Shown: positions 35,324 through 51,656 of the stretch, in pieces
Layout of the letters: every line of letters begins with the position of its first letter
How positions within the stretch are numbered: the stretch's first letter is position 1
Assembly: GCF_030116705.1 (NCBI RefSeq)
Contig: NZ_JAOTIK010000001.1
Span: 372,001 to 436,000, forward strand
Source of the DNA: Streptomyces sp. ML-6
GTDB taxonomy: Bacteria > Actinomycetota > Actinomycetes > Streptomycetales > Streptomycetaceae
Length of the DNA: 64,000 bases
Direction of reading: 5' to 3'
Notes under the pieces: model-generated
What the model was told of the DNA's origin: nothing
Database searches by the model: none
What the model saw: the letters and a program-made list of their open reading frames with translations, nothing else
Position numbers and translations under genes: made by a program

Positions 35324-35338
35324 GGGACCGTCCGGCCC
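35324..35338. promoter_or_regulatory. Candidate OsdR/DevR-type box upstream of CBS-BON gene 1
   Basis: GGGACCGTCCGGCCC, 56 bp before the start at 35394. It matches the island palindrome GGRCCGTTCGGCCC with one centre difference. Confidence 0.55.
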
Positions 35339-35393
35339 TCCCCCGCCGCCGCGCCCGGGGCGAGAGTGGGAACTGCGGAAGAGGAGGTCCCCG

Positions 35394-36041
35394 ATGTCTT
35401 CCCTGCCTGGCGCCCCTCGCACCGTCAGCGACGTCATGAGCCATACCCCCGTCGCGGTCGGCCATGACGCGTCCTACAAGGAGATCGTCACCCTCATGGA
35501 CGAATGGAAGGTGAGCGCCCTGCCCGTCCTCGAAGGAGAAGGACGTGTGATCGGAGTCGTGTCCGAGGCCGATCTCCTGCCCAAGGAGGAGTTCCGGCAC
35601 GACGATCCCCACTCCGGCCGGTTCGCGCGCGAGGCCAAGGCCCGGGCCCTGCGGGCCGGGGAACTCATGTCGAGTCCGGCCGTGACCGTCCATCCGGACG
35701 CCACCCTCGCCGAGGCGGCACGGATCATGGCCACGCGGAAGGTGAAGCGCCTGCCCGTGGTGAACGGTGTCGGCATGTTGGAGGGGGTCGTCAGCCGGAG
35801 CGACCTGCTCAAGGTCTTTCTGCGCACGGACGGCGAGATCGAGGAGGAGATCCGCCGCTGCGTGCTCGGCGGACCCACTGCCGCGGCGGGGCTGGACGTC
35901 TCCGTGCGGGAAGGGGTCGCCACCCTGCGGGGAACGCTCGCCGACCGTTCGCTGGTGCCGCTCCTGGCCCGCGCCGTGCGGGCCGTGGAGGGGGTCGTGG
36001 ACGCCCGGATGGAACTCGGTGCCCATGAGGACGCCCCATGA
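35394..36041 (+). CDS. CBS-domain pair with C-terminal BON domain (1)
   Basis: 215 residues from ATG 35394 behind GAGGAGG. Two CBS motifs (about 10-75 and 85-150) carry [27 protein letters not shown], then MSSPAVTVHPDATLAEAARIM and RKVKRLPVV. A BON domain (about 160-210) reads LDVSVREGVATLRGTL. CBS pairs bind adenosine nucleotides, and BON domains are associated with membranes or lipids. Mycobacterium Hrp1, in the DosR regulon, is a CBS-only relative. It is the first gene of the island and lies 51 bp before the response regulator. Confidence 0.88.
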   Translation: MSSLPGAPRTVSDVMSHTPVAVGHDASYKEIVTLMDEWKVSALPVLEGEGRVIGVVSEADLLPKEEFRHDDPHSGRFAREAKARALRAGELMSSPAVTVHPDATLAEAARIMATRKVKRLPVVNGVGMLEGVVSRSDLLKVFLRTDGEIEEEIRRCVLGGPTAAAGLDVSVREGVATLRGTLADRSLVPLLARAVRAVEGVVDARMELGAHEDAP

Positions 36042-36092
36042 CGGACAATCCTTGTGGGGGCGGTTACGTGCCCATCGACCGCAGGGACCGCC

Positions 36093-36842
36093 ATGACCGA
36101 TCTGACGGCAGCCGATACTCCCACCCGGGTCTTTCTCGTGGACGACCACGAAGTGGTGCGGCGGGGTCTCCGGGACCTGATCGACGACGAGCCCGACATG
36201 CGGGTGGCGGGCGAGGCCTCCACGGCGGCCCAGGCCCTGGCCAGGGGGCCTGCCCTGCGGCCGGACGTGGCCGTCCTCGACGTGCGGCTGCCCGACGGCG
36301 ACGGGATCACCGTGTGCCGGGAGCTGCGCTCACGGATGCCCTGCCTGGCGTGCCTGATGCTGACCTCGTTCGACGACGAGGACGCGCTCCTGGACGCGAT
36401 CATGGCGGGGGCGGCGGGCTACGTCCTCAAGCAGATCAAGGGCTCCGACCTCGTCTCGGCGGTGCGCACCGTGGCGACCGGGCAGTCGATGCTCGATCCG
36501 GCCACCACCGCCCGGCTCATGCGCTCCCTGCGGGAGCCCGAAGCGGCGAAGCCCCCGGAGGACGAACGCCTCGCCGCGCTGTCCGAGCGCGAGCGTTCGG
36601 TCCTGGAGCTCATCGGCGAGGGGCTCACCAACCGGCAGATCGCCAAGCGGCTCTACCTGTCGGAGAAGACGGTCAAGAACCACATCTCGCGGCTGCTCGG
36701 GAAGCTGGGGGTGGAACGGCGGGTGCAGGCGGCCGTGATCGCGGCACAGGCCCATGGACACGAGGCCCATGCGCACGACGGCCATGAGCACGACGCCGAG
36801 GAAGGCCGACGAGAGGTGGCGGGAGGTGACGGGAGGACCTAG
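36093..36842 (+). CDS. osdR: OsdR/DevR-like NarL-family response regulator with His-rich tail
   Basis: 249 residues from ATG 36093 (AGGGA upstream). The receiver domain (10-130) has acidic pair D17-D18 and phospho-acceptor D63 in VLDVRLPDGDG. The LuxR-type helix-turn-helix (about 165-225) has LSERERSVLELIGEGLTNRQIAKRLYLSEKTVKNH. The sequence and gene partners match DevR/DosR of mycobacteria and OsdR of S. coelicolor. After the DNA-binding domain there is an extra tail with AHGHEAHAHDGHEHDAEEG, unlike the short end of DevR. The 3' end meets the sensor kinase gene tail to tail, sharing CTAG. Confidence 0.85.
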   Translation: MTDLTAADTPTRVFLVDDHEVVRRGLRDLIDDEPDMRVAGEASTAAQALARGPALRPDVAVLDVRLPDGDGITVCRELRSRMPCLACLMLTSFDDEDALLDAIMAGAAGYVLKQIKGSDLVSAVRTVATGQSMLDPATTARLMRSLREPEAAKPPEDERLAALSERERSVLELIGEGLTNRQIAKRLYLSEKTVKNHISRLLGKLGVERRVQAAVIAAQAHGHEAHAHDGHEHDAEEGRREVAGGDGRT

Positions 36843-38584
36843 CGTCCTTCCTTCCGGTCCGGCGGCAGGGGGACGTGCCATTCGAGCAGGGTGCCGCCGG
36901 GGGGTTCCGTCCGGGGGAGGACGGACAGCGAACCGCCCAGTCGCCCGGCCCGCTCGGAGAGGTTGCGCAGACCTCGGTCCGTCCGGTCCTGCGGGATGCC
37001 CACTCCGTTGTCGCCCACCGTCACGACCAGGCTCCCCTCCCCGGCGAGGACGGTGACCTCGGCCGCGCACGCACCGGCGTGCCGGGCCACATTGGTGAGC
37101 GCCTCACCGATCACCGCGACGACGTCATCGGCCACCTCGACCGGCACGTCCGTGTCCAGCAGCCCCTCCATGCGCAGGGCCGGGGCGAACCCGAGGACCG
37201 GTGCGGCCGAATCGACCGCCGAGACGATGCGGCTCCTGAGTTTCGGCGCGGTGCCGGGCTCGTCGTGTTCCCGGAGGCCGAAGATGGTCGACCGGATGAT
37301 CTTGATGGTGGCGTCCAGGTCGTCGATCGCCCGGGTCAGCCGGCCCCTCGCCTCCGGATGCTTGACGAACCGCCGGGCACTTTGCAGGTTCATGCCGGTG
37401 GCGAAGAGTCGCTGGATCGCCAGGTCGTGCAGGTCGCGGGCGATCCGGTCGTGGTCCTCCAGGATGGTCGCCCGTTCGGCGTCACGGCGGCGGGCGGCCA
37501 GTTCGAGGGCCAGGGCCGCCTGTCCCGCGAATCCGGGAAGGGCGGCGGTCTCGGCCTCCGTGAAGGGCGCCCGTCCACCGCGCCGGGCGAGGACCAGCAC
37601 ACCGCTCAGCCGTTCCTCGGTGGCCACCGTGACCGCCACCACCGGCCCGAAGCCCTTCCAGCGGTCCGGCCGTGCCGTCACCCGCTCGTCGCTCCCGACG
37701 TCCGCCACCGTGACCAGTCCCTCCCCCTGCGCCAGGACGACGGCCGCCAGGGTGCCCTCGCCGCCCGGCAGGGCGAGGCCCCGGTGGACGTCGGCGCCCT
37801 CGCCCCGGGCCAGCGCGCCCCGCAACTCGCCGTCCGCGCCCACCGGGTAGAAGATCCCCGTGTCGGCGCCGAGGATGTCCACCGCCCGCTCCAGCATCCC
37901 GTCCAGGGCCTCTGTCTCCTCCGTGCCGGAGAGCAGGGCGCTGGTGAAGTCGGAGCTCGCGGCGAGCCATCGCTGTCGGCGTCGGCCCTTCTCGTACAGC
38001 CGTGCGTTCTCGATCGCGATACCGGCGGCACCGGCCAGGGTGGTCACGACGGCCTCGTCCTCGGTGTCGAATTCGGCTCCTCCGCGTTTCTCCGTGAGGT
38101 AGAGGTTGCCGAAGACCTCGTCGCGGACCCGGATGGGGACGCCGAGGAACGAATGCATCGGCGGGTGGTGGGCCGGGAAGCCGTACGAGGCGGGGTGTTC
38201 GGACAGCTCGGCCAGGCGCAGCGGCTCCGGGTTGCGGATCAGCTCGCCGAGGATGCCGTGTCCCGAGGGCAGGTCTCCGATCTGCCGTCGCAGGTCGTCG
38301 TCGATGCCGACGGGAAGGAATTCGGAGAGCTTCCGGTCCTCGCCGATGACGCCCAGCGCCCCGTACTCGGCATCGACGAGGGACACCGCGGCCTGGACGA
38401 TGCTGTGCAGCACCTGCGGCAGGTCGAGTTCACGGCCGACGGACATGACGGCCGCGAACAGTCCGTTGAGGCGGTCCCTGGTGCCCCTCGCCTCGTCGAT
38501 GCGGACCTGGAGCTCGTCGAGCAGTTCGTCGAGCCGGAGTCGCGGCAGCCGTGGGTCCGCGGATCCGGCTCTTTCCCGACCCAT
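36839..38584 (-). CDS. osdK: OsdK/DevS-like histidine kinase (GAF-GAF-HisKA_3-HATPase)
   Basis: 581 residues from ATG 38584, six bases after GGAGG; an ATG six codons earlier lacks one. Two GAF domains (about 50-200 and 220-365) precede the dimerisation helix with phospho-acceptor H386 in ARDLHDLAIQRLF. The ATPase has EALTNVARHA, DNGVGI and GLRNLSERAGRLGG. There are no membrane helices. This is the architecture of DevS/DosS and DosT, whose first GAF binds haem and senses O2, NO or CO. Here H144 in HPPMHSFLG is a candidate haem ligand. It should phosphorylate the convergent regulator. Confidence 0.87.
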   Translation of the reverse strand: MGRERAGSADPRLPRLRLDELLDELQVRIDEARGTRDRLNGLFAAVMSVGRELDLPQVLHSIVQAAVSLVDAEYGALGVIGEDRKLSEFLPVGIDDDLRRQIGDLPSGHGILGELIRNPEPLRLAELSEHPASYGFPAHHPPMHSFLGVPIRVRDEVFGNLYLTEKRGGAEFDTEDEAVVTTLAGAAGIAIENARLYEKGRRRQRWLAASSDFTSALLSGTEETEALDGMLERAVDILGADTGIFYPVGADGELRGALARGEGADVHRGLALPGGEGTLAAVVLAQGEGLVTVADVGSDERVTARPDRWKGFGPVVAVTVATEERLSGVLVLARRGGRAPFTEAETAALPGFAGQAALALELAARRRDAERATILEDHDRIARDLHDLAIQRLFATGMNLQSARRFVKHPEARGRLTRAIDDLDATIKIIRSTIFGLREHDEPGTAPKLRSRIVSAVDSAAPVLGFAPALRMEGLLDTDVPVEVADDVVAVIGEALTNVARHAGACAAEVTVLAGEGSLVVTVGDNGVGIPQDRTDRGLRNLSERAGRLGGSLSVLPRTEPPGGTLLEWHVPLPPDRKEGR

Positions 38585-38633
38585 CAAAACCTCCGGTCGC
38601 ATCCGGCACGCGCAGCATCTGCCGCACCCGGTT

Positions 38634-38834
38634 TCACGGTAGTCCGGATGCCCCGGCCGTTCCTGCCGGACCCGTCCGCCGGAACGCGGTCCGGACGAGT
38701 CGCGCCGCGCCCGCGCGTGCGGCGCGACTCAGGGCCGATCGGGTGGTGACGGCGTCGTCCGCGTGGATCTCCTGCGCCACGCCGACGGCCATGTTCACGG
38801 CGGCGGTCGTGCTCACAGCGACGGTCGTGTTCAC
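38634..38834 (-). CDS. Possible small TTVAV-repeat protein
   Basis: A 66-residue frame from GTG 38834 starts MNTTVAVSTTAAVNMAVGV and continues EIHADDAVTTRSALSRAARAGAARLVR, which looks protein-like. Its beginning lies inside the 18-bp tandem repeat, which encodes TTVAAN in this frame. It is downstream of a universal stress gene on the same strand. No ribosome site is evident, so the start and reality are uncertain. Confidence 0.33.
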   Translation of the reverse strand: MNTTVAVSTTAAVNMAVGVAQEIHADDAVTTRSALSRAARAGAARLVRTAFRRTGPAGTAGASGLP

Positions 38835-38880
38835 GCCGACGGTCGTGTTCGCGGCGACGGTCGTGTTCGCGGCGACGACC
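38793..38880. repeat. 18-bp tandem repeat, about five copies
   Basis: Unit GTTCACGGCGACGGTCGT, with copies at 38793, 38811, 38829, 38847 and 38865 (last partial). The length is a multiple of three, so the repeat keeps any frame open. It lies in the 328-bp gap between sensor kinase and universal stress protein genes. Confidence 0.85.
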
Positions 38881-38912
38881 GGGGAGAGGGCGAGGGCGTC
38901 GGTGTCGCGCTC

Positions 38913-39785
38913 TCAGCCGGTGGGAGAAGGAACGGTGATCACGGGACAGCGGGCGCGGTGCAGCAGCCCGTGGACGACGGAACCGACCCGCATCCCGGTG
39001 TAGCCGCCCCGGCCCCGACGCCCGACGACGACGGCCAGGGCGTGCTCGGCGGCTTCCGCGAGCGTCTCGACGGGCGAGCCGACGAGCACTTCGTGGGTGA
39101 GCCGGACGTCGGGGTACTTCCCCGCCCATCCGGCGGTGGTCTCCGCGAGCAGGCGGCGCTCGGCGTGGAACAGCGTGTCGCTCCTGTGCGGGGAGAACAC
39201 GGGCGGCTGCCAGACCGCGACGGCACGCAACGCGCAGTGTCTGAGGTCCGCCTCCTCGAAGGCCAGGGCCAGGGCTGCCCGGGAGGACTCGCTGCCGTCG
39301 ACGCCGACGACGAGGTGTGACGGATCCTGTGTGCTGTGTTCCGCGTCGCCCACCACGACGACGGGGCACCGTGCCTGTGCGGTGACGGGGACGACCAGGG
39401 AGCCGGCGCTCAGGAACTCCTCGGTGCGGCTGAGGTGGCGGGAACCGAGGACGACCATGGCGGCCTCCTGTGACAGTCCGGCCATCACGGGGGCCGGGAA
39501 GCCGCTGCGGAGCACGGCCTCGACGTCCACAGCCGGTTGCCGGGCCCGTGCCCAGTCGGCCGCGGCCCGCAACGCGTCCTTCCCCGCCTGTGTCCGGGCC
39601 CGGTGCCCGGGGGTTTCGCCCTCACGCCGGGTTTCGTGCGGCGGCGGTGGTGGTACGGCGACGACGAGCCGGAGCGCCAGTCGGCGCCGGTGGGCCTCGT
39701 CGGCCGCCCAGGCCAGGGGGAGGTGCCCGGCACGGACGGGGTCGATGCCCACGACGATGTCTCGGCGTTCCGTGCCGGAGGTCAT
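38913..39785 (-). CDS. Tandem universal stress protein (USP 1)
   Basis: 290 residues in two UspA domains (about 8-145 and 155-288). The second has a complete ATP-binding pattern G-x2-G-x9-GS (GRRGRGGYTGMRVGS), while the first is degenerate. Tandem USPs of this kind are the most abundant members of the mycobacterial DosR regulon; Rv2623 binds ATP and slows growth. A candidate regulator box lies about 97 bp upstream at 39882-39895. Confidence 0.9.
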   Translation of the reverse strand: MTSGTERRDIVVGIDPVRAGHLPLAWAADEAHRRRLALRLVVAVPPPPPHETRREGETPGHRARTQAGKDALRAAADWARARQPAVDVEAVLRSGFPAPVMAGLSQEAAMVVLGSRHLSRTEEFLSAGSLVVPVTAQARCPVVVVGDAEHSTQDPSHLVVGVDGSESSRAALALAFEEADLRHCALRAVAVWQPPVFSPHRSDTLFHAERRLLAETTAGWAGKYPDVRLTHEVLVGSPVETLAEAAEHALAVVVGRRGRGGYTGMRVGSVVHGLLHRARCPVITVPSPTG

Positions 39786-40104
39786 GAGGTGCTCCCTTCT
39801 CCGGGTCCGTGCCCGGGAACGGGCTCCACCGGGCGGTGGGCGTGCCGCAGGTCCGGCCGGGTGCCGGTCCTAGGCGTCCGAGGACCCGTCGGCCGACCAC
39901 GCTCGTGCTGCTCGCGACGGTGCTCCGTCCGCACCGGCAAAGCCCGTTCCGGTGCCTCGGCCGCCGTGGATTCCGGCCGGGGTTCCCCCGTCGGTCCGCC
40001 GGGGCTGTTTCCACCCTCGGTTTCCACCCTCGCACCCGGCCGCCCGGGGTCCGGAGGTCCGCTGGGGGCACAGGTGGGGCCAAAGGTCCCAGGGGGACGG
40101 CCGG
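39786..40104. other. Regulatory gap with candidate boxes and a 13-bp direct repeat
   Basis: 319 bases without a gene. It holds a candidate regulator box at 39882-39895 (GGACCCGTCGGCCG) and a DevR-like palindrome GGGGCCAAAGGTCCC at 40076-40090. A tandem direct repeat of GTTTCCACCCTCG lies at 40007-40032. Confidence 0.5.
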
Positions 40105-42495
40105 TCACAGCCGGAACCACCGCTCCTCCCCCGGTGCGACGGTGGTCCGCCGTCCTTCCGGCAGCACGACGGCGAGCGGCCCCCTCGACGAGGCGGGGAC
40201 CCGTATCCCCAGCCGGCCGGGCAGCATCCGCAGACGTACACCGCGGTGACCGCCGCAGCAGAGGGTGAAGGCGAACCCGGGGAGCTGGCGCAACGCCACC
40301 GGTGCCACCCGCAACCCGTCCGGTCCCGCCTCCAGGCCGGTGATCCCGCGCTCGACCAGGTCGACCGTGCCGGCCATGGCCCCGAGGTGGATGCCCTCGC
40401 CCGTCGTGCCGCCCTGGACGTCCGCCACGTCGGTGACCAGCGCTTCCTCGCAGTACCGCCAGGCGTCGGGACCCTTCTGCCGGGTCAGCACCCAGCCGTG
40501 GACGAGGCTGCTGAGGGTCGAACCGTGGCTGGTGCGCCGCAGGTGGTGGGCGATGGTGGCCCGCCAGATCTCGTCGTCCAGCCGGTATCCGAGCCGGGTG
40601 AACAGTTCGGACAGTTCCTCGGGCCGGAAGAGGTGGCCGAGCATGAGGGTGTCGGCCTGCTTCGACGCCTGGTAGCGGTTGACGGTGTCGCCCTCGGCCT
40701 CCAGGATGCGGTCGAGCCGGCGGATGTCCCCGTAACGGGCCCGGTACGCCTCCCAGTCGAGTTCCGCCAGTTCTCCGTAGCCCTCGAACTGGCTCACGAG
40801 ACCTTGGTGGAACGGCACATGGAGGCGGCGGGACACCTCGTCCCAGCGGTCGAGTTCCCCGTCGTCGAGCAGGAGTCGCTCGCGCAGCTCCGCCCGCCGT
40901 GCGACGGGCAGTTCGTCCAGCAGGTCGAGGCCGCGGGCGAGCACCCAGGCGGCGGTCACGTTCGTGTAGGCGTTGTCGTCGATGCCCGGAACCGTGGCGT
41001 CCGGATAGGCGTCGTGGTACTCGTCGGGTCCCACCACCCCACGGATGCGGTAGCGGCCCGAGGCCGGGTCGAGGGTGGCGGAACCGGCCCAGTAGCGGGC
41101 GATCTCCAGCAGGATCTCGGCGCCCTCGGCATGCAGGAAACCCTGGTCCCCGGTGGCCTGCACGTACTTCCAGACGTTGTACGCGACGGCCGAGCCGACA
41201 TGCCGCTGGAGCCGGGAGCGGTCGGGCAGCCAGCGTCCGGACCGCGGGTTGAGGTGGAGCTCCGGCGTCTCCTCCCTCCCCGAACTCCCGCTCTGCCAGG
41301 GGTACATGGCGCCCTGCTGACCGGCGCGACGGGCCGCCGCGCGGGCGGCCGGCAGTCTGCGGTGGCGGTACACGAGCAGAGCCCTGGCCACCTCGGGAAA
41401 GTGGAGGTCGAGGTAGGGCAGGACGAAGAGTTCGTCCCAGAAGACGTGGCCCCGGTACGCCTCCCCGTGCAGGCCGCGGGCGGGAACGCCCACGTCGAGC
41501 TCCGCCGTGTGCGGGGAGAGCGTCTGCAGCAGATGGAACAGGTGCAGCCGCAGGATGTGGCCCGCTTCTCCCGGTACGTACAGTTCGCCCTCCTCCCAGA
41601 GCCGTTGCCAGGCGGCCCGGTGCGTGGCGAGCAGCGAAGGGAAGGCCGGTGCGCGGGTGACGGCCCCGACGGCCTCGGTGAGGGGGTCGCCCGGGGGGCG
41701 GTCCAGCGAGGTGCGCAGGGCCACGGTCTTCTCCACACTCGCCGAACGGCCCCTGCCCAGGGGCAGGCGGTACGTCTGGACGGTGCCGGTCGGTGTGGTG
41801 ATCGCCCGGACCGGGCGCTCGGGACAGGTTTCCGTGCGTACGGCCAGGGCGATCAGGTGGCCCGGGTCGCTGGTGCGGCAGGACAGGAAGGCGGTCCCGT
41901 CGGGCTCGAAACCACTGCGATGGCCGAGGAGGTGGCGGCTCTCCAGGTGGCGGTAGCGCTCGACGCCGGCATTGGTGACGGCGCCGTCCAGGGCTGCCTC
42001 GACCTCGACGGCACCGGTCCAGCCGTACGCGTGGAAGGTGGTGAGCTGGGCCGCGAGCCCGGAGTCTCCCATGTGCACGATCCGCAGGTGGCCGACCCGC
42101 AGAGCGCGCCCCCGGACGTCCTGGAAGAAGAGGCGCCGGGTGAGGACTCCCCGGCCCGGATCGAGCTGGACGTCGTAGTGGCGCAGTTGTGCGGAGTCGG
42201 GGGTGAGCCAGTCTCCCGGAGGGCTGTCGTCGGGGAGGCAGCGATAGCGCAACAGGGTCCAGTTCGGCAGGTTGACGAGATCCTCGTTCTCGACCTGCTC
42301 GCCGGCGACGAGCGAGGTGCGCCGGTCGTAGCAGCCGGCGAGGTAGGTGCCCGGGTAGTGGAACGCGTCGGCGGTGCACTCCGGGGCGGAGCCGCGGGTG
42401 GCGAATCTGCCGTTGCCGAGCGTGCAGAGCGCTTCCACCAGCCGTTCCCGCGCCGGATCGTATGTGTCGTACCGCCAGATCCGTGCCGTGGTCAT
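40105..42495 (-). CDS. Glycoside hydrolase family 65 disaccharide phosphorylase
   Basis: 796 residues from ATG 42495, seven bases after GGAG. The N-terminal beta-sandwich (to about 260) is followed by an (alpha/alpha)6 barrel. General acid E492 sits in VVGPDEYHDAY, and the phosphate loop reads QGGTTGEGIHLGAMAGT. GH65 enzymes split maltose, trehalose, kojibiose or nigerose with phosphate to give beta-glucose-1-phosphate. The start overlaps the stop of the beta-phosphoglucomutase-like gene by four bases, which would convert that product to glucose-6-phosphate. Mycobacterial OtsB1 in the DosR regulon also combines HAD and GH65-like parts. Confidence 0.88.
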   Translation of the reverse strand: MTTARIWRYDTYDPARERLVEALCTLGNGRFATRGSAPECTADAFHYPGTYLAGCYDRRTSLVAGEQVENEDLVNLPNWTLLRYRCLPDDSPPGDWLTPDSAQLRHYDVQLDPGRGVLTRRLFFQDVRGRALRVGHLRIVHMGDSGLAAQLTTFHAYGWTGAVEVEAALDGAVTNAGVERYRHLESRHLLGHRSGFEPDGTAFLSCRTSDPGHLIALAVRTETCPERPVRAITTPTGTVQTYRLPLGRGRSASVEKTVALRTSLDRPPGDPLTEAVGAVTRAPAFPSLLATHRAAWQRLWEEGELYVPGEAGHILRLHLFHLLQTLSPHTAELDVGVPARGLHGEAYRGHVFWDELFVLPYLDLHFPEVARALLVYRHRRLPAARAAARRAGQQGAMYPWQSGSSGREETPELHLNPRSGRWLPDRSRLQRHVGSAVAYNVWKYVQATGDQGFLHAEGAEILLEIARYWAGSATLDPASGRYRIRGVVGPDEYHDAYPDATVPGIDDNAYTNVTAAWVLARGLDLLDELPVARRAELRERLLLDDGELDRWDEVSRRLHVPFHQGLVSQFEGYGELAELDWEAYRARYGDIRRLDRILEAEGDTVNRYQASKQADTLMLGHLFRPEELSELFTRLGYRLDDEIWRATIAHHLRRTSHGSTLSSLVHGWVLTRQKGPDAWRYCEEALVTDVADVQGGTTGEGIHLGAMAGTVDLVERGITGLEAGPDGLRVAPVALRQLPGFAFTLCCGGHRGVRLRMLPGRLGIRVPASSRGPLAVVLPEGRRTTVAPGEERWFRL

Positions 42496-43262
42496 GGCAG
42501 CACTCCCCACACGGTCCCCAGCAGTTCCGCGAGGTCGGCGACGACGAGGTCGGCGCCCTGTTCGCGCAGTGCTGCGGTGTGGTGCCGGTCGGGGGTGCGG
42601 TCGAGGCCGACGACGAGCCCGAAGCGGCCGGCGCGGGCCGCCGAGACTCCGGCGAGCGCGTCCTCGACGACCGCGCCGTCCTCGGGACGGGTGCCGAGGA
42701 GACCGGCGGCGTGCAGGAAGAGGGCGGGGTCCGGTTTGCCGGCGAGGCCCAGCCGGGCGATGTCCTCGCCATCGACGACAACGGTGAGGAGCCGGTCGAG
42801 TCCGGCGGTGGTGAGCAGGGCCCGGGCGTGCCGGGACGCCGAGACCGCCGCGCACGGCACGCCGAGGGAGCGCAGGGCGGTGAGCGCCCGCCCGGCGTCC
42901 TCGAAGGGGACGACCGGGTTCCTGCGCAGGGCGTCCTGGAACGCCTGTTCCTTGAGCGCTGCCACGGCCCGGACCGTGTCGCAGCCAGGAGGGTCATCGC
43001 GTGCACCGGGGGAAAGGCGGATGCCCCGGGCCGTCAGGAACGCCTCGGCCCCGTCGTAGCGGGACCTGCCATCGACGAACCGGCGGTAGTCGGCGTCGGC
43101 GTCGAACGGCTTCCGGCCCCGCTCCCCGGGTGTCCACTCCGCGAGGCAGGCGTCGAACGCGGTCTTCCACGCCGCCGCGTGGACGGTGGCGGAGGCGAGC
43201 AGCACGCCGTCGGTGTCGAGGACGACGCCCCGCGGCGGCGGGGAGCCGGGGCGGCCGTTCAT
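42492..43262 (-). CDS. HAD hydrolase, beta-phosphoglucomutase-like
   Basis: 256 residues. Motif I reads [10 protein letters not shown] (nucleophile Asp, then Asp two residues on). The helical cap (about 25-110) has [14 protein letters not shown], the substrate loop region of beta-PGMs. Motif II is AVSASRHA, motif [12 protein letters not shown] and motif [11 protein letters not shown]. Coupling to the GH65 gene by a four-base overlap supports a beta-phosphoglucomutase role. Its own start overlaps the stop of a truncated alcohol dehydrogenase remnant, so a third gene once headed this operon. Confidence 0.87.
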
Positions 43263-43425
43263 CCGGCCCCCGCGAAGTGCGCGGCCTCGACGGCCGTGGG
43301 CTGCGGACCGCCGAGCGCGACCTTGATCGTCCCGGTCCCCGCGGCGCGGCCGAAGACGTCGTACGCCTCCTCCATCTGCCCGGGTTCGAACCGGTGGGTG
43401 ACCGGTTCCGCGGCCGGGGGCCGGC
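43259..43425 (-). pseudogene. C-terminal stub of a zinc-type alcohol dehydrogenase
   Basis: The last ~50 codons read [33 protein letters not shown], the usual C-terminus of MDR alcohol dehydrogenases. The catalytic and NAD-binding parts are missing. The stop overlaps the HAD start (ATGA), showing it was the operon's upstream gene. The break falls within about 25 bp of the plus-strand MBL remnant. Confidence 0.65.
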
Positions 43426-43447
43426 CGGTCTCAGAGGAGGGCCGGCC

Positions 43448-43960
43448 GTGTCCGGGACGGTCCCGGGCCCGGCGGCCGCCGTACCTCTTCCTGCCCTGCT
43501 CGGCTTCCTGGGCGGGGCGGGAACGGTCACCGGCAGCACGTTCCTGGGCAAGAGCGGCCACGTGCGACTCCTTCTCGACTGTGGTCCCTTCCAGGGTTTC
43601 GCGAACCCGCGCCGACGCAACTGGGAACCCCTGGCCCGTGACGCCGCCGATGTCCGCGCCGCGGTCGTCCCGCACGAACTGACGGGGCTGCGCGAGGGCG
43701 GCGTGCCGTCCTGGTCGGTGCCCGGGTACGCCGAAGACGTCCGGCGAGTACGTGCCCGTACGGGCCGAAGTCACCGGCATATCGCACTTCTGCGCCCGTG
43801 CCGAGGCGGGACAGGTCGTCGACTGGTTCCGAGGCGCCCGGCCCCCGCCCATCGCCCCACGTGTCTCGTGCCTCGTGCACGGCGAACCGGCCGCGTCCGA
43901 GGCCCCGCACGACCGTATCGATCACGAACGGGGCCGGGCGGCCGTCGTGCCCGCTCGGGT
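43448..43960 (+). pseudogene. Internally deleted MBL-fold/beta-CASP RNA-processing protein
   Basis: The first part reads [32 protein letters not shown] and [14 protein letters not shown], the start of an MBL-fold RNA-metabolising hydrolase. The metal motif HAHxDH is already spoiled (PHELTG). In another frame from about 43752, [26 protein letters not shown] and [20 protein letters not shown] match the family's C-terminal domain. About 300 residues in between, including the beta-CASP domain, are gone. Not functional. Confidence 0.65.
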
Positions 43961-43983
43961 GAGCCGTTCTGGTCCGTCGACCC

Positions 43984-43997
43984 GGGCCCTTCGGCCC
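43984..43997. promoter_or_regulatory. Candidate OsdR/DevR-type box upstream of CBS-BON gene 2
   Basis: GGGCCCTTCGGCCC, one mismatch from the palindrome, 117 bp before the start at 44114. Confidence 0.5.
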
Positions 43998-44113
43998 CTC
44001 GGTGTGACCTGCGCGGCCCTCCCCGGCTCCGCACCTCCCACGAGAGCCTGGGGGGAGAAGGACCGGCCGGGCGTCGGCCCGGAACCCGGCTCGTGCCGTC
44101 GAAGGAGACCGCC

Positions 44114-44767
44114 ATGACCCCCCGGCCGTTCACCGTCGCCGACGTCATGACCAAGAAGGTCGTCGCCGTCCGGCCCGGCGCGGAATTCAAGGAGATCGCC
44201 GCCGCCATGGAACGGTGGAAGGTGACCGCGCTCCCCGCGGTCGAGGGGGAGGGTCGGGTCGTCGGAGTCGTTTCCGAGGCCGATCTGATCCTCAAGGAGG
44301 AGTTCCACGACCACCGCCTCGGCCTCATCGAGCAGCTGCGGAGGCCCGACGCCACCACGAAGGCCGGTTCCGCCCGGGCCGAGGACCTGATGGCCTCGCC
44401 CGCCGTCACCGTCGGTCCCGGCGCCCCGCTGCCGCAGGCCGCCCGGCTGATGGCCACCCGACGCGTCAAACGGCTGCCGGTCGTCGACACCCACGGCACG
44501 CTCCAGGGCATCGTGAGCCGTGCCGACCTGCTCAAGGTCTTCCTCCGTCCGGACGAGGAACTCGCCGCCGAGGTCCGGAACGATGTCGTCGCACCCCTGT
44601 TCCCTCTGTCGCGCGACCAGGTCGACGTCCGCGCCGAGGCCGGTGTCATCACGCTGACCGGCACCGTGTGCGACAGCACGCCCGTCCCGGTCGCGGACCG
44701 GCCGGCACGAGCTGTCGAAGGGGTGGTGGACGTACGATGCGAGCTCACCGCGGACGCCGACGCGTAG
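44114..44767 (+). CDS. CBS-domain pair with C-terminal BON domain (2)
   Basis: 217 residues from ATG 44114 (AAGGAG upstream). CBS1 has [22 protein letters not shown] and [19 protein letters not shown]2 has [12 protein letters not shown] and [13 protein letters not shown]. The BON part begins [16 protein letters not shown]. It is closest to copy 1, sharing the KEEF insertion after the first CBS, so the two look like duplicates. The nicotinate phosphoribosyltransferase follows 53 bp later and may be cotranscribed. Confidence 0.88.
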
Positions 44768-44820
44768 CCGGGGCGCGCCGTCCCCGTACGGAACGCGGGG
44801 CGGCCACGCGTCCCCGGGGC

Positions 44821-46155
44821 GTGCCCGAAGTGACGTCCACCGACCTGTACCAGGTCACCATGGCGCTCTCGTACCTGCGGGAGGACATGCGGGCGCCGGC
44901 CACGTTCAGCCTTTTCGTGCGCGCCCTGCCCCCGAGGCGGGGGTTCCTGGTCGCCGCTGGGCTGGAACCGGCGCTCGACTTCCTCTCCCGCTTCCGAGTG
45001 GGCCGTTCGGACGCGGAGCAGTTCGCGGAGGCGATGCGGCGCCCCGTGGCGGACCTCGCGCCGTTGCGCGGCCTCTCCTTCGAGGGTCGGGTCCGGGCCG
45101 TGCCGGAGGGCCGGATCGTCCTCCCCGGTGAACCGCTGCTGGAGGTCACCGCCCCGCTGCCGCAGGCCCAGCTGGTGGAGACGTACCTGCTGTCCCTGCT
45201 GTGCCATCAGACGGCGGTCGCCTCCAAGGCGGCCCGGTGCGTGCTCGCCGCCGCCGGACGGCCCCTGGTGGACTTCTCGCTGCGCCGGACCCACGGTCCC
45301 GAGGCGGGCATGCAGGCGGCACGGCTGTGCGCCCTGGTCGGGTTCGCGGGCAGCAGCAACGTCGCCGCCGCGTGCCGGTACGGCATTCCCGCCGTCGGCA
45401 CGATGGCCCACTCGTACATCGAGAGCTTCCCCTCGGAGGAGGAGGCGTTCCGTGCCTTCTCCCGCACCCATCCGGGTCCGGTGACCTTCCTGGTCGACAC
45501 GTACGACACGGAGCGCGGAGTGGCCACGGCCGCGCGCGTGTTCACGGACCTCGGACTCGGGGCGGGGTGCGCGATCCGGCTCGACAGCGGTGATCTGGGC
45601 GTACTGGCCCGCCGGGCCCGTACCGCACTCGACGCGGCCGGGCTGGCCGATGTCCGCATCATCGCGAGCGGCGGCCTGGACGAGTACGGCGTCGACCGGT
45701 TCGTGAGGGAGGGCGCGCCGATCGACGTCTACGCCGTCGGTACGAAGGTCGGCACGGCGGCCGACGCCCCCTACCTGGACGCGGCGTACAAACTCGTCGA
45801 ATACGACGGCCAACCCGTCATGAAGCTCTCGTCCGCCAAGGTCACCGCACCGGGGCCGAAGCAGGTCTTCCGCGGCCCGGGGTTCCGGGACGTGATCGGC
45901 CTGGCCGACGAGGCGCCGCCCGAGGGCACGGAGCCGCTGCTGCGGACCGTGATGCGCGACGGATCGCGGACGGAGCCCCCCGACACCCCGACGGCCGCCC
46001 GGGGCCGCTTCGAGGCCGATCTCTCGGCCCTGCCGGAGGAAGCACGGCGCATCGCGGCCCCGGTGGCACCCGTACCCTCGGTGTCGGCCCGGCTGACCGC
46101 CCTGACGGCCACCGTCCGGCGCCGGATCGCCGAAAGGACCGGGACCGCACCGTAG
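44821..46155 (+). CDS. pncB: Nicotinate phosphoribosyltransferase
   Basis: 444 residues from GTG 44821; a GTG nine bases on and an ATG at 44736 are alternatives. TSTDLYQVTMALSYL is the family start. FSLRRTHGPEAGMQAARL carries the conserved active-site RRxHGP block, and IRLDSGDLG and IIASGGLDEYGV are phosphate-binding strands. It makes nicotinate mononucleotide from nicotinate and PRPP for NAD salvage. A second nicotinate phosphoribosyltransferase, PncB2, belongs to the mycobacterial DosR regulon, so its presence here strengthens the comparison. Confidence 0.87.
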   Translation: MPEVTSTDLYQVTMALSYLREDMRAPATFSLFVRALPPRRGFLVAAGLEPALDFLSRFRVGRSDAEQFAEAMRRPVADLAPLRGLSFEGRVRAVPEGRIVLPGEPLLEVTAPLPQAQLVETYLLSLLCHQTAVASKAARCVLAAAGRPLVDFSLRRTHGPEAGMQAARLCALVGFAGSSNVAAACRYGIPAVGTMAHSYIESFPSEEEAFRAFSRTHPGPVTFLVDTYDTERGVATAARVFTDLGLGAGCAIRLDSGDLGVLARRARTALDAAGLADVRIIASGGLDEYGVDRFVREGAPIDVYAVGTKVGTAADAPYLDAAYKLVEYDGQPVMKLSSAKVTAPGPKQVFRGPGFRDVIGLADEAPPEGTEPLLRTVMRDGSRTEPPDTPTAARGRFEADLSALPEEARRIAAPVAPVPSVSARLTALTATVRRRIAERTGTAP

Positions 46156-46175
46156 AACGGCGACGGTGTCCCCGA

Positions 46176-46189
46176 GGGCCGGTCGGCCC
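46176..46189. promoter_or_regulatory. Candidate OsdR/DevR-type box upstream of CBS-BON gene 3
   Basis: GGGCCGGTCGGCCC, with perfect palindromic arms, 74 bp before the start at 46263. Confidence 0.6.
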
Positions 46190-46262
46190 TCCCCCGGCCT
46201 CCGGGGGCGGGCGATCATGAGAGAGGGAAGCCGGCGGACCGAGGCATGGGAAAGGGACCGGG

Positions 46263-46880
46263 ATGAGGCATCGAAGTGTCGCCGAGTTGATGACGCCCAC
46301 GGCCGTCAGTGTCGTGCCGGGCACCCCCTTCAAGGAGATCGCCCGGCTCCTGGACGAGTTCGACATCACCGCCGTCTGCGTGGTGGACGAGACGGACCGG
46401 CCGCTCGGCGTCGTCTCCGAAGCCGATCTCGTACGCCCCCGCGCCGTCGGCTCCGGGCTCCACACGGCGGGAGCGCTCATGTCGAGCCCCGCCGTGGTCG
46501 CCCGGCCCGAATGGAGCGTGGTGCGAGCCGCCCGCGTGATGGACCGGTCCCGGGTGAAGCGCCTGCCCGTGGTCGACGACGAGGGGCGGCTCGTGGGTGT
46601 ACTGAGCCGAAGCGACCTCATCCAGCTGTTCCTCCGCAGGGACCGGGCGATCCAGGAGGAGATCGTCGAGGACGTGGTGACCCGCACCCTCGGACTGAAC
46701 CCGTCGGACCTCTCGGTGGACGTCCAGGACGGCCGGGTCACCCTCAGCGGCACGGTACGGCGCGCCGGACTCGTGCCCGTCCTCCTCAGGCTCTGCAACA
46801 GTGTCGATGGTGTCGTGGGAGTCGTCGACCGGCTCCATCACGAGAACGACGCCACCGACGACGCCACCACCGGGAAGTGA
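46263..46880 (+). CDS. CBS-domain pair with C-terminal BON domain (3)
   Basis: 205 residues, the shortest of the five copies. CBS1 has VAELMTPTAVSVVPGTPFKEIA and [12 protein letters not shown] without the KEEF insertion; CBS2 has LMSSPAVVARPEW and [13 protein letters not shown]. The BON part is LSVDVQDGRVTLSGTV. The start ATG follows a weak ribosome site (GGGACCGGG). A palindromic box is 74 bp upstream. Confidence 0.86.
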   Translation: MRHRSVAELMTPTAVSVVPGTPFKEIARLLDEFDITAVCVVDETDRPLGVVSEADLVRPRAVGSGLHTAGALMSSPAVVARPEWSVVRAARVMDRSRVKRLPVVDDEGRLVGVLSRSDLIQLFLRRDRAIQEEIVEDVVTRTLGLNPSDLSVDVQDGRVTLSGTVRRAGLVPVLLRLCNSVDGVVGVVDRLHHENDATDDATTGK

Positions 46881-47505: not shown

Positions 47506-48426
47506 TCAGCGCGACAGGGGTCGGCCGGTCGTGCGGAGGCGGGGCCTTCGGGCCCGTGCGGGGGTGCCGTTTCGCCCCTCCCGTCCGGCGGAGGGGACGG
47601 TGATCACCGGGCAGTCGGCGTGGTGCAGCAGACCGTGGACCGTCGAGCCGAGGCGCATGCCCGTGTAACCGCCCCGCCCCGTGCGTCCGACGACGAGGGC
47701 GAGGGAGGACTGCGCGGCCAGGGCGAGTTGTTCGACCGGGTGTCCCCGGCAGACCTCTGCGGAGACGTCCACGTCCGGGTACCGCTCCGCCCAGCCGGCC
47801 AAGGACTCGGCGAGCAGGCGCCGCCGCTCGGACAGCCCCTCCTCGGTGTCGTCGTGCGCGAGGACCGGGCGGGGCCAGACCCAGACCGCCCGCAGTCGTG
47901 CCTCGCGCAGGCTCGCCTCCTCGAGGGCGAACCCGATGGCCTCCCGGCTCGACCCGCTGCCGTCCACGCCGACGACGAGGGTCGGTGGATGCACCGCGGT
48001 GTGTTCCGGGGCGCGGACCACGACGACGGGGCAGGGGGCACGCGCGGTGAGCGGGACGGCCACCGAACCTTCACCGAGCAGCTCGGCGGCCCTGCCGAGA
48101 CCGCGTGACCCCACGACGACCAGGTCGGCATCGGCCGCCCGGTCGAGCAGCACCGTGGCCGGCGCCCCGTCCATGAGTTCCGCCGAGGTCCTCACGTCGC
48201 TGTGCAGTTCCCGTACGAGGTCCTCCGCGTTGGCGAGCGCCGACTCCGCCCGGAGCCGCAGGGCGCTCCCGTGGCCGACGGCGTCGTACCACAGCCGGTC
48301 GTGGACGGGGGGCAACGCGACCACGAGGCACAGCCGCAGTCGTCTGCGGTCGGCCTCGGCGGCGGCCCAGGCGATGGCCGGGACGGCCGGTCCCTTCGGG
48401 TCGACACCGAACAGGAGGTCGTTCAT
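47506..48426 (-). CDS. Tandem universal stress protein (USP 2)
   Basis: 306 residues, two UspA domains. The first starts DLLFGVDPKGPAVPAIAWAAAEADRR. The second has a complete ATP motif (GRTGRGGYTGMRLGS). Its C-terminal domain is very similar to that of USP 1, suggesting duplication within the island. The start overlaps the USP 3 stop by four bases (ATGA), so it is the second gene of a two-gene operon. A basic tail of about 20 residues follows the fold. Confidence 0.9.
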   Translation of the reverse strand: MNDLLFGVDPKGPAVPAIAWAAAEADRRRLRLCLVVALPPVHDRLWYDAVGHGSALRLRAESALANAEDLVRELHSDVRTSAELMDGAPATVLLDRAADADLVVVGSRGLGRAAELLGEGSVAVPLTARAPCPVVVVRAPEHTAVHPPTLVVGVDGSGSSREAIGFALEEASLREARLRAVWVWPRPVLAHDDTEEGLSERRRLLAESLAGWAERYPDVDVSAEVCRGHPVEQLALAAQSSLALVVGRTGRGGYTGMRLGSTVHGLLHHADCPVITVPSAGREGRNGTPARARRPRLRTTGRPLSR

Positions 48427-49328
48427 GTCGTGCCGTCCCCGCTCGCGAAGCCCGGCGGAACGATCTCCACGGGGCAGTGTGCGTGGTGGAGGAGGGCATG
48501 GGCGACCCGTCCGAGGGACGGTCCCACCCCCAGCGGGTGGCGGCCCCGGCCCATCACGAGCAGGTCGGTGTGGGCACTCGCCTCGATCAGGATTCCGGGG
48601 GTGCTCGTTCCGGTCTCCACATGATGTCCGACGATCAGGTCGGGATACCGCTCGCGGACGCGGTCGGCGAGCGCCTTCATGTCCTGCACCCGCCGCTGGG
48701 CGATCTCGTCGAGGTCGTCGAGCATGGTCGCGACGGTACCGACGTGGGTGAGCACGTTCCATACGCTCACGATGCGCAGTGCCGCCTTGCGGGCGTCCGC
48801 CTCCGCGGCGGCCAGGAGCAGCCACCCCAGGTCCGTGGAGTCGTGCACGGCCGCGGTGACCGAGCCCGACTCGGGGCGCTCCGCCTCCCCCCGTACGACG
48901 ATCACGGGCACCTCGGCACGGGCCGCCACTCCCAGTCCCACGGAGCCGAGCAGGAGGGAGGAGAAACCTCCGAGCCCTCTGCTGCCGACCACGATCGTTC
49001 CCCGGCCGCCGGCGGCGGCCAGGAGTCCGGCGACCGGTTCCTGGCGGCCGAGCTCCTTGGTGATGGTGAGACCCGGGAATCGCTCCCGGACGGCGTCCGC
49101 GGTCTCGATCAGCAGATCGCGGCCGGCTTCCCGCACCGCCTGGATCGTCTCCGCGTCGCTCCAGTAGGCGCGCCGGTCGGTGTCGGCGGCGTGGACGAGG
49201 TGCAGGGGTCGGGACCGCCGGTCCGCCTCCGCCGCGGCCCAGAGCGCGGCCGTCCGCGCGGAAGGTGATCCGTCGATCCCCACGACGACGGTGGCGAGCT
49301 CGGGCCGGACGGGGATCTCGCTGCTCAT
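48423..49328 (-). CDS. Tandem universal stress protein (USP 3)
   Basis: 301 residues from ATG 49328, behind AAGGAGG; an upstream in-frame start lacks one. The first UspA domain keeps the ATP pattern (GSRGLGGFSSLLLGS). The second is degenerate (GRGRHPLGVGPSLGR), the reverse of USP 1 and 2. It heads the leftward USP operon and shares a 186-bp divergent promoter region with USP 4, in which a perfect palindrome sits at 49416-49429. Confidence 0.9.
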   Translation of the reverse strand: MSSEIPVRPELATVVVGIDGSPSARTAALWAAAEADRRSRPLHLVHAADTDRRAYWSDAETIQAVREAGRDLLIETADAVRERFPGLTITKELGRQEPVAGLLAAAGGRGTIVVGSRGLGGFSSLLLGSVGLGVAARAEVPVIVVRGEAERPESGSVTAAVHDSTDLGWLLLAAAEADARKAALRIVSVWNVLTHVGTVATMLDDLDEIAQRRVQDMKALADRVRERYPDLIVGHHVETGTSTPGILIEASAHTDLLVMGRGRHPLGVGPSLGRVAHALLHHAHCPVEIVPPGFASGDGTT

Positions 49329-49415
49329 GGTTCCTCCTTCGGTCCGCCCGGGGTCCGCGCACGTCCCCGAGGACGACACTCCTCACGCTCGCACCCCTGC
49401 GGGCCCCACCGGCAT

Positions 49416-49429
49416 GGGCCGTTCGGCCC
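49416..49429. promoter_or_regulatory. Candidate OsdR/DevR-type box between divergent USP genes
   Basis: GGGCCGTTCGGCCC, a perfect palindrome apart from the TT centre. It is 86 bp from the USP 4 start and 88 bp from the USP 3 start, nearly central. A weaker match, GGGCCCCACCGGCAT, begins at 49401. Confidence 0.65.
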
Positions 49430-49514
49430 CGATCGAGACCTGCCCGGCCCTCTCTCCCCGGGAAGGCCCGGTACGAGCCTGGAGCCGTGGACCGGCACGG
49501 CCGAGGAGGCAGTG

Positions 49515-50432
49515 ATGACAGCCCAGGTCACCGTGGGTCTGGACGGCTCGGACGAAAGCCTCGCCGCGGCTCGTTGGGCGGCGGGGGAAGCGGTGCTGCG
49601 CGAGGTCCCGCTCCGGCTGGTGCACGTGGAGGAATGGCCGAACACGCCCGAGGTGCCGCTTCCGTACGCCCGGACTCTCGCCGAACGGGCCGAGGAACTG
49701 TTGCGGGACGAGTCGGACCGTCTGCGGAAGGAGCATCCCGGCCTGGAAGTGTTCACCGGGCGAACGTGCGGCCGGGCGGCGGACGTGCTGACGGCCGCGG
49801 CGGACGAGGCCGATCTGATGGTGCTCGGGTCACGGGGTCTCGGCGGCGTCCTCGGCTTCGTCGTCGGCTCGGTCTCCCTCCCCGTCGTCGGCTCGGCACG
49901 TAAGCCGGTCGTCCTCGTGCGTGCGGAGGGGGCGGGGCGGCATGCGGGGCCGACGGCCCCCCGCGACGGGATCGTGGTGGGCGTCGACGTCCACCACCCG
50001 TGCGAATCCCTGCTGGCGTTCTCGTTCGCGGAGGCGGCGCGGCGGCGGGTACCTCTCCGATTCCTGCACAGTTGGACGCTGCCCGCCTCCTACGGCTACG
50101 CGTCCGTCGTGGACCCGGGGCTCGGCGAAGAGCTCGGGGCCGACCTGCTCGGCGACCTCGAGGACCTGCTGGAGCCCTGGCGCGGGCGATTCCCGGGGGT
50201 GGAGGCCACGGCCAGGGCGATCCCGGGCTCCGCCGCCCACCAGATGGTGCAGGCGTCACAGGACGCGGAGCTCGTGATCGTGGGACGCCGGACGCCCCGG
50301 CTGCCCGTCGGGACGCGTCTCGGCCACGTGGCCCACGCGGTCCTCCACCACAGCCCCGCTCCGGTCGCGGTGGTTCCCCTGAGCGAGCCCACGGGGGCGG
50401 TTCCCCCGAGTGAGCCGACCGGGGCGGGATGA
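49515..50432 (+). CDS. Tandem universal stress protein (USP 4)
   Basis: 305 residues from ATG 49515 (GAGGAGG upstream; a GTG one codon earlier is possible). The first domain has GSRGLGGVLGFVVGS, a full ATP motif. The second lacks it (GRRTPRLPVGTRLG). The C-terminus ends in a duplicated SEPTGA-type tail encoded by a degenerate DNA repeat at 50387-50470 that continues past the stop. Confidence 0.9.
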   Translation: MTAQVTVGLDGSDESLAAARWAAGEAVLREVPLRLVHVEEWPNTPEVPLPYARTLAERAEELLRDESDRLRKEHPGLEVFTGRTCGRAADVLTAAADEADLMVLGSRGLGGVLGFVVGSVSLPVVGSARKPVVLVRAEGAGRHAGPTAPRDGIVVGVDVHHPCESLLAFSFAEAARRRVPLRFLHSWTLPASYGYASVVDPGLGEELGADLLGDLEDLLEPWRGRFPGVEATARAIPGSAAHQMVQASQDAELVIVGRRTPRLPVGTRLGHVAHAVLHHSPAPVAVVPLSEPTGAVPPSEPTGAG

Positions 50433-50470
50433 GCCGGAACCGGGGCGGGATGAACCGAATGAGCCGGATG
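50387..50470. repeat. Degenerate tandem repeats at the 3' end of USP 4
   Basis: GAGC(C/G)C(A)CGGGGGCGG-like and CCGGGGCGGGATGA-like units recur several times across the stop codon. They look like replication-slippage products. Confidence 0.55.
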
Positions 50471-50529
50471 AACCGGCAGACGGGTGTGGTGCCAGGACTC
50501 CCGGGCCCGGATGGACCGGCACCCGGATG

Positions 50530-51234
50530 TCAGGGCTCCCGCCCGTCGGACCCGTCGGCGGTGCCGGGCGCGCCCGGCACCAGGATCCGCCGCCCCGTCA
50601 CGCGGTGCGGCGAGAGCAGCACGGCCGTGTCCCGTCCGTCCCCGGCCCACGGCTGCGAGTGCGCGGCGTCCCGGAGGGCCTGTGCCTCGACGGGGTCGGA
50701 CACCGTGCGCACCGGGCCGACGAGGAGCACGCTCCAGCCCTGGCGGAATGCCTCGTCCAGGTGGTCCTCCTCGAAGGCGATCTCGGCCCCGGCCGCCGCT
50801 GCGAGCGCGAGCGCGGACGTGGACGTGGTGGTGAAGAGCACTTTCCCGTCGAGGATCTGATAGTTGACGGGGAAGACGTCCAGCCCGTCCGCGGCCTCCA
50901 CGGCGACCCGGCCCACGCCGTGGTCGTCGAGCAGCGCCCAGCACTCCTTCTCGTCGAGCGCCTCCGGCCTCGGCCGGTTCCCCGCCGGCCCCTCGCCCTG
51001 CGGGGAACCGGCCGTGAGACCCGTCAGGTCCTGGACCGTCGTCTCCAGGGCGTTCGCGAGCCGGACCAGGAACTCGATCCCGGGGGCGGGCAGCCGCTCC
51101 TCCACGTAGGCGATGTAGCCGGGGGTGGAGCCGGCCCGGGCCGCCACGTCCTCCCGGGAGAGGCCGAGCTGCCGGCGCCTCGTCGCGACGCGGCGGCCGA
51201 GATCGCTCCGGTGGTGTCCGTCTGCGGTGTTCAT
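50530..51234 (-). CDS. HTH (XRE)-PPOX fusion protein
   Basis: 234 residues. A helix-turn-helix of the Cro/CI type (about 10-70: LGRRVATRRRQLGLSREDVAARAG, then GIEFLVRLANAL) is joined to a pyridoxamine-5'-phosphate-oxidase-like split barrel (about 90-225: LDEKECWALLDDHGVGRVAV, FPVNYQILDGKVLF). Such barrels bind FMN or F420. The fusion suggests a redox- or flavin-responsive DNA-binding protein. PPOX-like proteins also occur in the mycobacterial DosR regulon. It is convergent with USP 4. Confidence 0.85.
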   Translation of the reverse strand: MNTADGHHRSDLGRRVATRRRQLGLSREDVAARAGSTPGYIAYVEERLPAPGIEFLVRLANALETTVQDLTGLTAGSPQGEGPAGNRPRPEALDEKECWALLDDHGVGRVAVEAADGLDVFPVNYQILDGKVLFTTTSTSALALAAAAGAEIAFEEDHLDEAFRQGWSVLLVGPVRTVSDPVEAQALRDAAHSQPWAGDGRDTAVLLSPHRVTGRRILVPGAPGTADGSDGREP

Positions 51235-51621
51235 CAGGTTTCTCCCTCGACGGTCACTCGGTGCTGCGGCCCGACGGCGACGGGACACGCGGCGTGGTGC
51301 GGGGCACGGTGGGCCGCCCTGCCGCGTTACAGGCCGACGGCGGCGTGCCCCGCCGACCAACGGACCGGCGGCGGGGCGCTCGGTCGGTACCCTGCGCGCG
51401 GACCCCTCGCCGCCCCGGCCCTCGTCCCCGAGGGTGGCCTCACCCACGATCAGCCGATCGCCCTGCCGGGCCCCCAGGCCGGCACGCGGTTCCCCCGGGC
51501 CGTGCCGGGTCCCGGTCCCAGTCATGGCCTTCTCCCGATCGCCGCGGGTCGCCGGGCCGTCGCGTTCTCGGGCGGCCCGTGCTCCCGAACCCACCCTGCG
51601 CCCGGTCGGCTTCCCCTCATA

Positions 51622-51656
51622 GGGGCCATCGGTCCCGGAAGGGGACCGTTCGGCAC
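51622..51656. promoter_or_regulatory. Two candidate OsdR/DevR-type boxes in tandem
   Basis: GGGGCCATCGGTCCC (51622-51636) and GGGACCGTTCGGCAC (51642-51656) have centres 20 bp apart, two helical turns. They end 72 bp before the start at 51728. Paired boxes at about this spacing are typical of DevR-activated promoters. Confidence 0.65.

Follow-up and report, generated by a model that had tools for sequence, protein, structure and literature searches.

A palindromic sequence recurs upstream of genes in an island of Streptomyces sp. ML-6, and its copies very probably serve as operators for a response regulator of the OsdR/DevR family, the likeliest candidate being the product of the island's own gene at 36054-36842. 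The window analyzed here is a 64,000-nucleotide stretch (C1:372001-436000) with a GC content of 72%, taken from a 9.13-Mb genome (9,126,325 bases, 5 contigs, completeness 99.99). The island spans approximately 35-54 kb of this window and encodes five CBS-BON proteins, four universal stress proteins (USP), a GH65 enzyme, a HAD hydrolase, a nicotinate phosphoribosyltransferase (NAPRT), an HTH-PNPOx-like protein, a nitroreductase-type protein, a response regulator and a sensor kinase. Judging from its sequence, the island palindrome is not a new motif, but the box published for OsdR (SCO0204) of Streptomyces coelicolor, AGGGCCGATCGGCCCT, for which PMC5069765 lists predicted sites, several of them examined by gel shift. 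The island is hence a new example of an OsdR/DevR-type regulon already known in kind, to which a proposed rule for paired boxes is added here.

The initial annotation had reported six near-matches to a shared palindrome, located 56-117 bp upstream of island genes. Five of them (35324, 43984, 46176, 49416 and 51642) are upheld, and the sixth, at 39882, was rejected as a site with a matrix score of -13.7. The pattern GGRCCGTTCGGCCC has only five matches with zero or one mismatch in the window, all inside the island, at 35325, 43984, 46176 and 51643 (one mismatch each) and at 49416 (none). With the same tolerance, 113 matches were found in the 9,126,325 bases of the genome, compared to 50 for the reversed control. 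This pattern had been fitted to the sites and therefore provides no independent test, so that an outside yardstick was sought in the published OsdR sites. A symmetrised scoring matrix with a maximum of 22.4 was built, independently of the window, from the 25 distinct sites in Table 1 of PMC5069765; a wider 22-bp matrix presented little information outside the central 16 bp.

Under this matrix, strong boxes were identified upstream of CBS1, the gene preceding the response regulator (GGGACCGTCCGGCCCT, 35324-35339, score 14.4), upstream of CBS2 (CGGGCCCTTCGGCCCC, 43983-43998, score 13.1, with a second, weak box at 43930 scoring 8.5), upstream of CBS3 (AGGGCCGGTCGGCCCT, 46175-46190, score 20.6 of a possible 22.4), between two divergent USP operons (TGGGCCGTTCGGCCCC, 49415-49430, score 16.5) and upstream of CBS4, where the main box of a pair is located (GGGACCGTTCGGCACT, 51642-51657, score 12.2). 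A CBS-BON gene is hence the first gene behind four of the five. All five boxes scoring at least 12 are intergenic and fall 30-150 bp upstream of gene starts, which were called by us on codon score. The distances from box center to start (63 bp for 35324, 124 bp for 43983, 108 bp for 46175, 94 and 93 bp for 49415 and 79 bp for 51642) confirm a promoter-range location, with measured centers at 63-124 bp, and place the USP box midway between the two operons, as had been proposed. The distance for 46175 becomes 81 bp if CBS3 starts at the ATG in 46263.

The enrichment of these boxes was assessed against 20 stretches of 20 kb (400 kb of the 9.13-Mb genome), the remainder of 33 distinct 20-kb stretches after leaving out 13 that had been chosen around hits or paralogues. 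In DNA lying 30-150 bp upstream of starts, the island harbors five boxes scoring at least 12 in 1,399 bp, compared to three in 42,043 bp of background (Fisher 1.8e-6). When all DNA is considered, the island holds five in 19.5 kb and the background 13 in 400 kb (Poisson 7e-4 after adding one pseudo-count), and the window outside the island contains a single match at this threshold, in coding DNA. In agreement with the initial annotation, chance is an unlikely explanation for these sites.

Analysis of related loci, comprising the best 80 of at least 562 confirmed for one regulator, outlined the same pattern. Streptomyces is the named source of 74 of the 80, so that counts from these loci are not independent; the five highest-ranking named loci for the regulator all belong to this genus, with 81-87% identity. 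Sites in this set favored intergenic DNA: of 333 matches scoring at least 12, intergenic sequence (300 kb) held 296 and coding sequence (1,258 kb) held 37, and 241 of the intergenic boxes were located 30-150 bp upstream of a start. An intergenic box scoring at least 9 was detected within 400 bp of 66 of the 78 regulator units amenable to assessment, and in five of six divergent USP-USP pairs. Boxes scoring at least 11 at 25-220 bp upstream were present for 64/83 regulator, 12/30 PNPOx-type and 11/57 kinase genes, and for 157/885 genes without a match to the island queries; all these per-class counts include genes inside operons.

Comparison with a close relative (G004), whose regulator is 89% identical, revealed that the box in the USP divergon (49415) is identical at 16/16 positions within a surrounding region of 72% identity. 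The counterpart of the CBS3 box (46175) is identical at 13/16 positions and scores 14.4. In a second genome (G025), the aligned stretch of the USP divergon is GGGGCCGATCGGTCCC, identical at 13/16 positions. The G004 row of the alignment including G025 was evidently non-homologous and was set aside, and the G004 comparison stems from a separate alignment.

The CBS4 promoter presents a double box. Upstream of the main copy at 51642 lies a weak one, AGGGGCCATCGGTCCCG (51621-51637), which can be read in two registers scoring 7.1 (51621) and 6.3 (51622), giving a spacing of 20-21 bp. The double box proposed by the initial annotation is corroborated: although weak by score, the upstream copy is backed by conservation and phasing, as both boxes are kept in G004 with their spacing, at 14/16 (weak) and 15/16 (main) identical positions. 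Their scores in that relative are lower, with 2.7 for the weak copy (6.6 in the next register) and 8.3 for the main one. In the related loci, a partner scoring at least 5 was found at 20-23 bp for 93 of the 296 intergenic boxes and for one of the 37 coding matches, defining 86 distinct pairs in 52 loci. With the same procedure, partners numbered 2 at 16-19 bp, 8 at 24-27, 13 at 28-31, 21 at 32-35, 4 at 36-39, 10 at 40-43, 11 at 44-47, 10 at 48-51, 17 at 52-55 and 9 at 56-59 bp. Once near-duplicates were removed, 258 of 261 oriented segments around related boxes were left, and within the 19-23 bp zone these showed 47 upstream and 42 downstream partners scoring at least 5, compared to means of 1.75 and 1.73, and a maximum of 6, in 60 shuffles; real flanks at 24-90 bp averaged 7.5 and 3.4 partners per 5 bp. 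The 20-bp double box noted initially thus seems to reflect a general feature. Weaker spacing peaks were also observed across the related loci (L031-L110), one at 32-35 bp, close to three helical turns, and another at 52-55 bp, close to five.

A DevR-like sequence, GGGGCCNNNGGTCCC, had been reported alongside the main palindrome, and its two exact matches in the window, at 40076 and 51622, are indeed present. As a separate motif it was rejected, because a search of the window allowing up to two mismatches yields 49 matches, no more than shuffled sequence does (mean 59.5). The GGRCCGTTCGGCCC-type and GGGGCCNNNGGTCCC-type motifs are better read as strong and weak forms of one box. The weak box at 40076-40091 (GGGGCCAAAGGTCCCA, score 7.7) lies 298 bp from the USP1 start and is doubtful, with 220 background matches scoring at least 6.5 in 400 kb. 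No box scoring above 5.3 was found in the stretch between the kinase and USP1.

The island regulator (36054-36842, forward strand) is a DevR/OsdR-like, NarL-type protein with Pfam Response_reg and GerE domains, and its closest solved structure is DevR (3c3w, E 1.2e-72). Its recognition helix contains EKTVKN, with SEKTVKN aligned to AEKTVKN of DevR, and it keeps the DNA-contact residues of DevR (K179, K182 and N183). Convergent with the regulator, and overlapping its reading frame by 4 bp, lies a gene encoding a DosT/DevS-like sensor kinase with a GAF-GAF-HisKA_3-HATPase architecture in Pfam (36839-38602, reverse strand). Its GAF region matches 2vzw (E 9.1e-54), which we take to be DosT although the entry title merely states a probable histidine kinase response regulator, and the DevS structures 2y8h, 2y79, 2w3d and 4ynr (E 2.5e-48 to 3.2e-47); its ATPase domain matches DosT 3zxq (E 4.4e-14). 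In the aligned first GAF region, H146 and Y168 occupy the places of H149, the haem-ligand histidine of DevS, and of Y171.

Based on homology, we infer binding, activation and gas sensing in the island. The kinase would bind haem through its first GAF domain, sensing O2, NO or redox state, and would phosphorylate the regulator, a dimer of which would then bind the box. Bound regulator would activate the USP and CBS-BON genes and, by co-transcription, the NAPRT gene, as well as its own CBS1-regulator operon, generating positive feedback. At boxes 20-23 bp apart (about two helical turns), like 51622/51642, two dimers would probably bind cooperatively on the same face of the DNA.

Several observations weigh against this interpretation. 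In the related loci, a box scoring at least 11 lies directly upstream of just 19/70 CBS-type and 54/118 USP genes, and of 0/12 GH65 and 0/4 NAPRT genes. Two of the island boxes are not conserved in place in G004: the position aligned to 43983 scores 4.3, with the weak box at 43930 retained (8.6), and the one aligned to 35324 scores -1.4. This relative presents instead a box scoring 14.4 about 550 bp upstream of CBS1, and boxes are found at 574 and 606 bp in the related loci L031 and L033. Among 16 related loci with a CBS gene directly before the regulator, three have a box with a score of 11 or more no farther than 250 bp from the CBS start, seven have one scoring at least 15 between CBS and regulator, one of them showing both, and the remaining seven have more distant boxes or none; given these differences in placement, the arrangement at 35324 is one of several. 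Only one of the five strong island boxes (51642) has a partner at 20-23 bp. Genome-wide, RGGGCCGWTCGGCCCY with up to two mismatches is found 331 times and its reversed control 235 times (1.4-fold), so that loose matches are mostly due to chance. Lastly, when 5-bp gapped palindromes were enumerated without guidance in the intergenic DNA of the island, GCCGG-N5 and similar GC dyads came out on top and the box was not recovered; the window alone would therefore not have proved the motif.

A further point against the island protein as the main reader of the boxes is that its recognition helix is not exclusive to it. The genome encodes two further DevR-like regulators, 64% (C1:6630211) and 60% (C1:3829058) identical to it, with the next matches at 44% or less, and among the ten best of 38 listed matches EKT[VI]KN is present in all three DevR-like regulators and in none of the seven next best-scoring. 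The boxes might accordingly be read mainly by one of the other two regulators, or by all three together, which we consider unlikely though deserving serious attention. The locus of C1:6630211 contains boxes of its own near VKOR, COX1 and flavohaemoglobin-like genes, a perfect AGGGCCGATCGGCCCT among them, and PMC5069765 describes that the S. coelicolor kinase SCO0203 also serves an orphan regulator, SCO3818. The island regulator, in contrast, sits among the island boxes, and its probable operon carries one at 35324. Four additional kinase matches, one of them partial, were detected in the genome at E <= 1e-40. No DevS-like kinase match lies beside C1:3829058, and our guess is that this regulator is the SCO3818 counterpart.

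The possibility that the boxes are chance GC palindromes, picked after the fact in a 72% GC window, draws on the selection of pattern and positions from the same sequence, on the outcome of the unguided count and on the many loose matches in the genome. It is countered by the independent matrix, the upstream enrichment and the conservation against diverged flanks, and is very improbable for the set. Chance is refuted for 46175, 49415 and 51642. It may account for 40076 and, with lower probability, for 35324 and 43983. Least probable of all is that the palindromes are intrinsic terminators or other intergenic RNA hairpins: the boxes are GC-rich dyads and 46175 starts 20 bp past the end of the upstream gene (46155), yet in related intergenic regions of 100-400 bp, boxes scoring at least 12 occur in 69/161 divergent and 89/274 co-directional but in just 3/57 convergent regions, and this avoidance of convergent regions excludes terminators as a general explanation. 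A Rfam scan of the window returned no matches at gathering score.

Operator sites of an OsdR/DevR-type regulator thus being the favored interpretation, the gene content of the island may be considered. CBS1 (35394-36041, forward, codon-score start) is the probable first gene of the regulator operon, with Pfam matches to CBS (1.4e-30) and BON (6.6e-07) on the longer open reading frame (ORF) 35181-36041. It is followed, beyond the regulator and kinase genes, by three genes on the reverse strand: USP1 (38913-39785, Usp 3.3e-36), with no strong box upstream, a GH65 gene (40105-42495, codon-score start; 4.9e-132 on ORF 40105-42855) and a HAD-family hydrolase gene (42492-43262, Hydrolase 1e-19). On the forward strand, CBS2 (44114-44767, CBS 1.5e-28, BON 1.4e-06) is perhaps co-transcribed with the NAPRT gene (44821-46155, NCBIfam NF009131, E 7.1e-183) and precedes CBS3 (46263-46880, CBS 2.1e-27, BON 6.9e-11). 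USP2 (47506-48426) and USP3 (48423-49328), on the reverse strand with Pfam Usp domains and codon-score starts, probably constitute one operon (47506-49328), facing USP4 on the forward strand (49512-50432, Usp 8.2e-42). The HTH and pyridoxamine-phosphate-oxidase-like gene (50530-51234, reverse; Pyridox_ox_2 8.6e-22, HTH_31 5.7e-10) is followed on the forward strand by CBS4 (51728-52405; CBS 7.5e-34, BON 3e-10 on ORF 51713-52405) and CBS5 (52626-53291; CBS 1.5e-31 on ORF 52329-53291), the latter perhaps in the CBS4 transcript and both with codon-score starts. Between the HAD gene and CBS2, two stretches in 43435-44013 match both ends of an intact G004 gene of 475 aa, with the middle missing, in what looks from sequence like a deletion remnant; the start of the G004 gene resembles, by eye only, the metallo-beta-lactamase/beta-CASP type.

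Boxes were also observed beyond the island. The second DevRS-like locus (L147:1-10000, C1:6625001-6635000) contains, besides the perfect consensus, further boxes near its VKOR, globin/FAD (flavohaemoglobin-like) and COX1 genes. A near-perfect box, GGGGCCGATCGGCCCT, lies at L118:10125 (C1:2910125), with pyridine-nucleotide oxidoreductase and Phd/YefM antitoxin genes on either side, at 268 and 331 bp from their respective called starts; this could possibly be a distant member of the regulon. Other boxes were found 103 bp upstream of an FGGY sugar kinase gene (L153:9972, score 20.0) and 94 bp upstream of a class-V aminotransferase gene (L156:10462, score 20.6).

The dyad targeted by DevR in Mycobacterium tuberculosis, GGGNC-N4-GNCCC, resembles the island box. 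The DosT/DevS-DevR (DosR) dormancy regulon of this species shares with the island the DevR-type DNA-binding helix, whereas the island box is GC-richer, its targets are rich in CBS-BON genes and its haem sensing is predicted from sequence. The OsdR/OsdK (SCO0204/SCO0203) system of S. coelicolor, as described in PMC5069765, has in common with the island the 16-bp box, the type of regulator and kinase, the USP genes, the PNPOx-like and nitroreductase genes around the regulator and a box before it. The two systems differ in that kinase and regulator are convergent in the island and form an osdR-osdK operon in S. coelicolor, and in that CBS-BON genes lead four of the five island boxes while the main text of PMC5069765 contains no occurrence of "CBS". 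The same type of kinase-regulator pair (SCO0203-0204) constitutes the S. coelicolor DevSR nitric-oxide loop, in which, according to PMC4766573, DevR binds upstream of narG2. Unlike in that loop, the island genes scanned included no nitrate reductase gene, and a flavohaemoglobin-like gene is located at the second DevRS-like locus of this genome.

The M. tuberculosis DevR regulon also provides a precedent for the paired boxes, since PMC3029386 documents primary and weaker secondary sites bound cooperatively, resembling the strong and weak boxes of the island. No description of box pairing for Streptomyces OsdR/DevR was found in the literature searched, which left subscription journals mostly uncovered, and the words "tandem", "helical" and "spac" do not occur in the available text of PMC5069765. 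We put forward, as a tentative proposal somewhat short of an even chance, that OsdR/DevR promoters of Streptomyces as a rule combine a strong box with a degenerate one, separated by 20-23 bp and lying on the same helix face. Under this proposal, several kinases sharing a DevS-like GAF histidine region would feed the three DevR-like regulators of this organism, whose outputs would be pooled at the paired boxes, and each pair would respond to hypoxia, NO or stress as a cooperative threshold.

These results would extend the OsdR/DevR dormancy-type regulon to an island rich in CBS-BON and USP genes. The pairing of boxes at two helical turns offers a simple, testable rule for recognizing weak operators in Streptomyces, which would connect the cooperative promoter logic of mycobacterial DevR with this genus. 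Furthermore, the presence in one genome of three regulators with one recognition helix turns cross-talk among them into a testable question.

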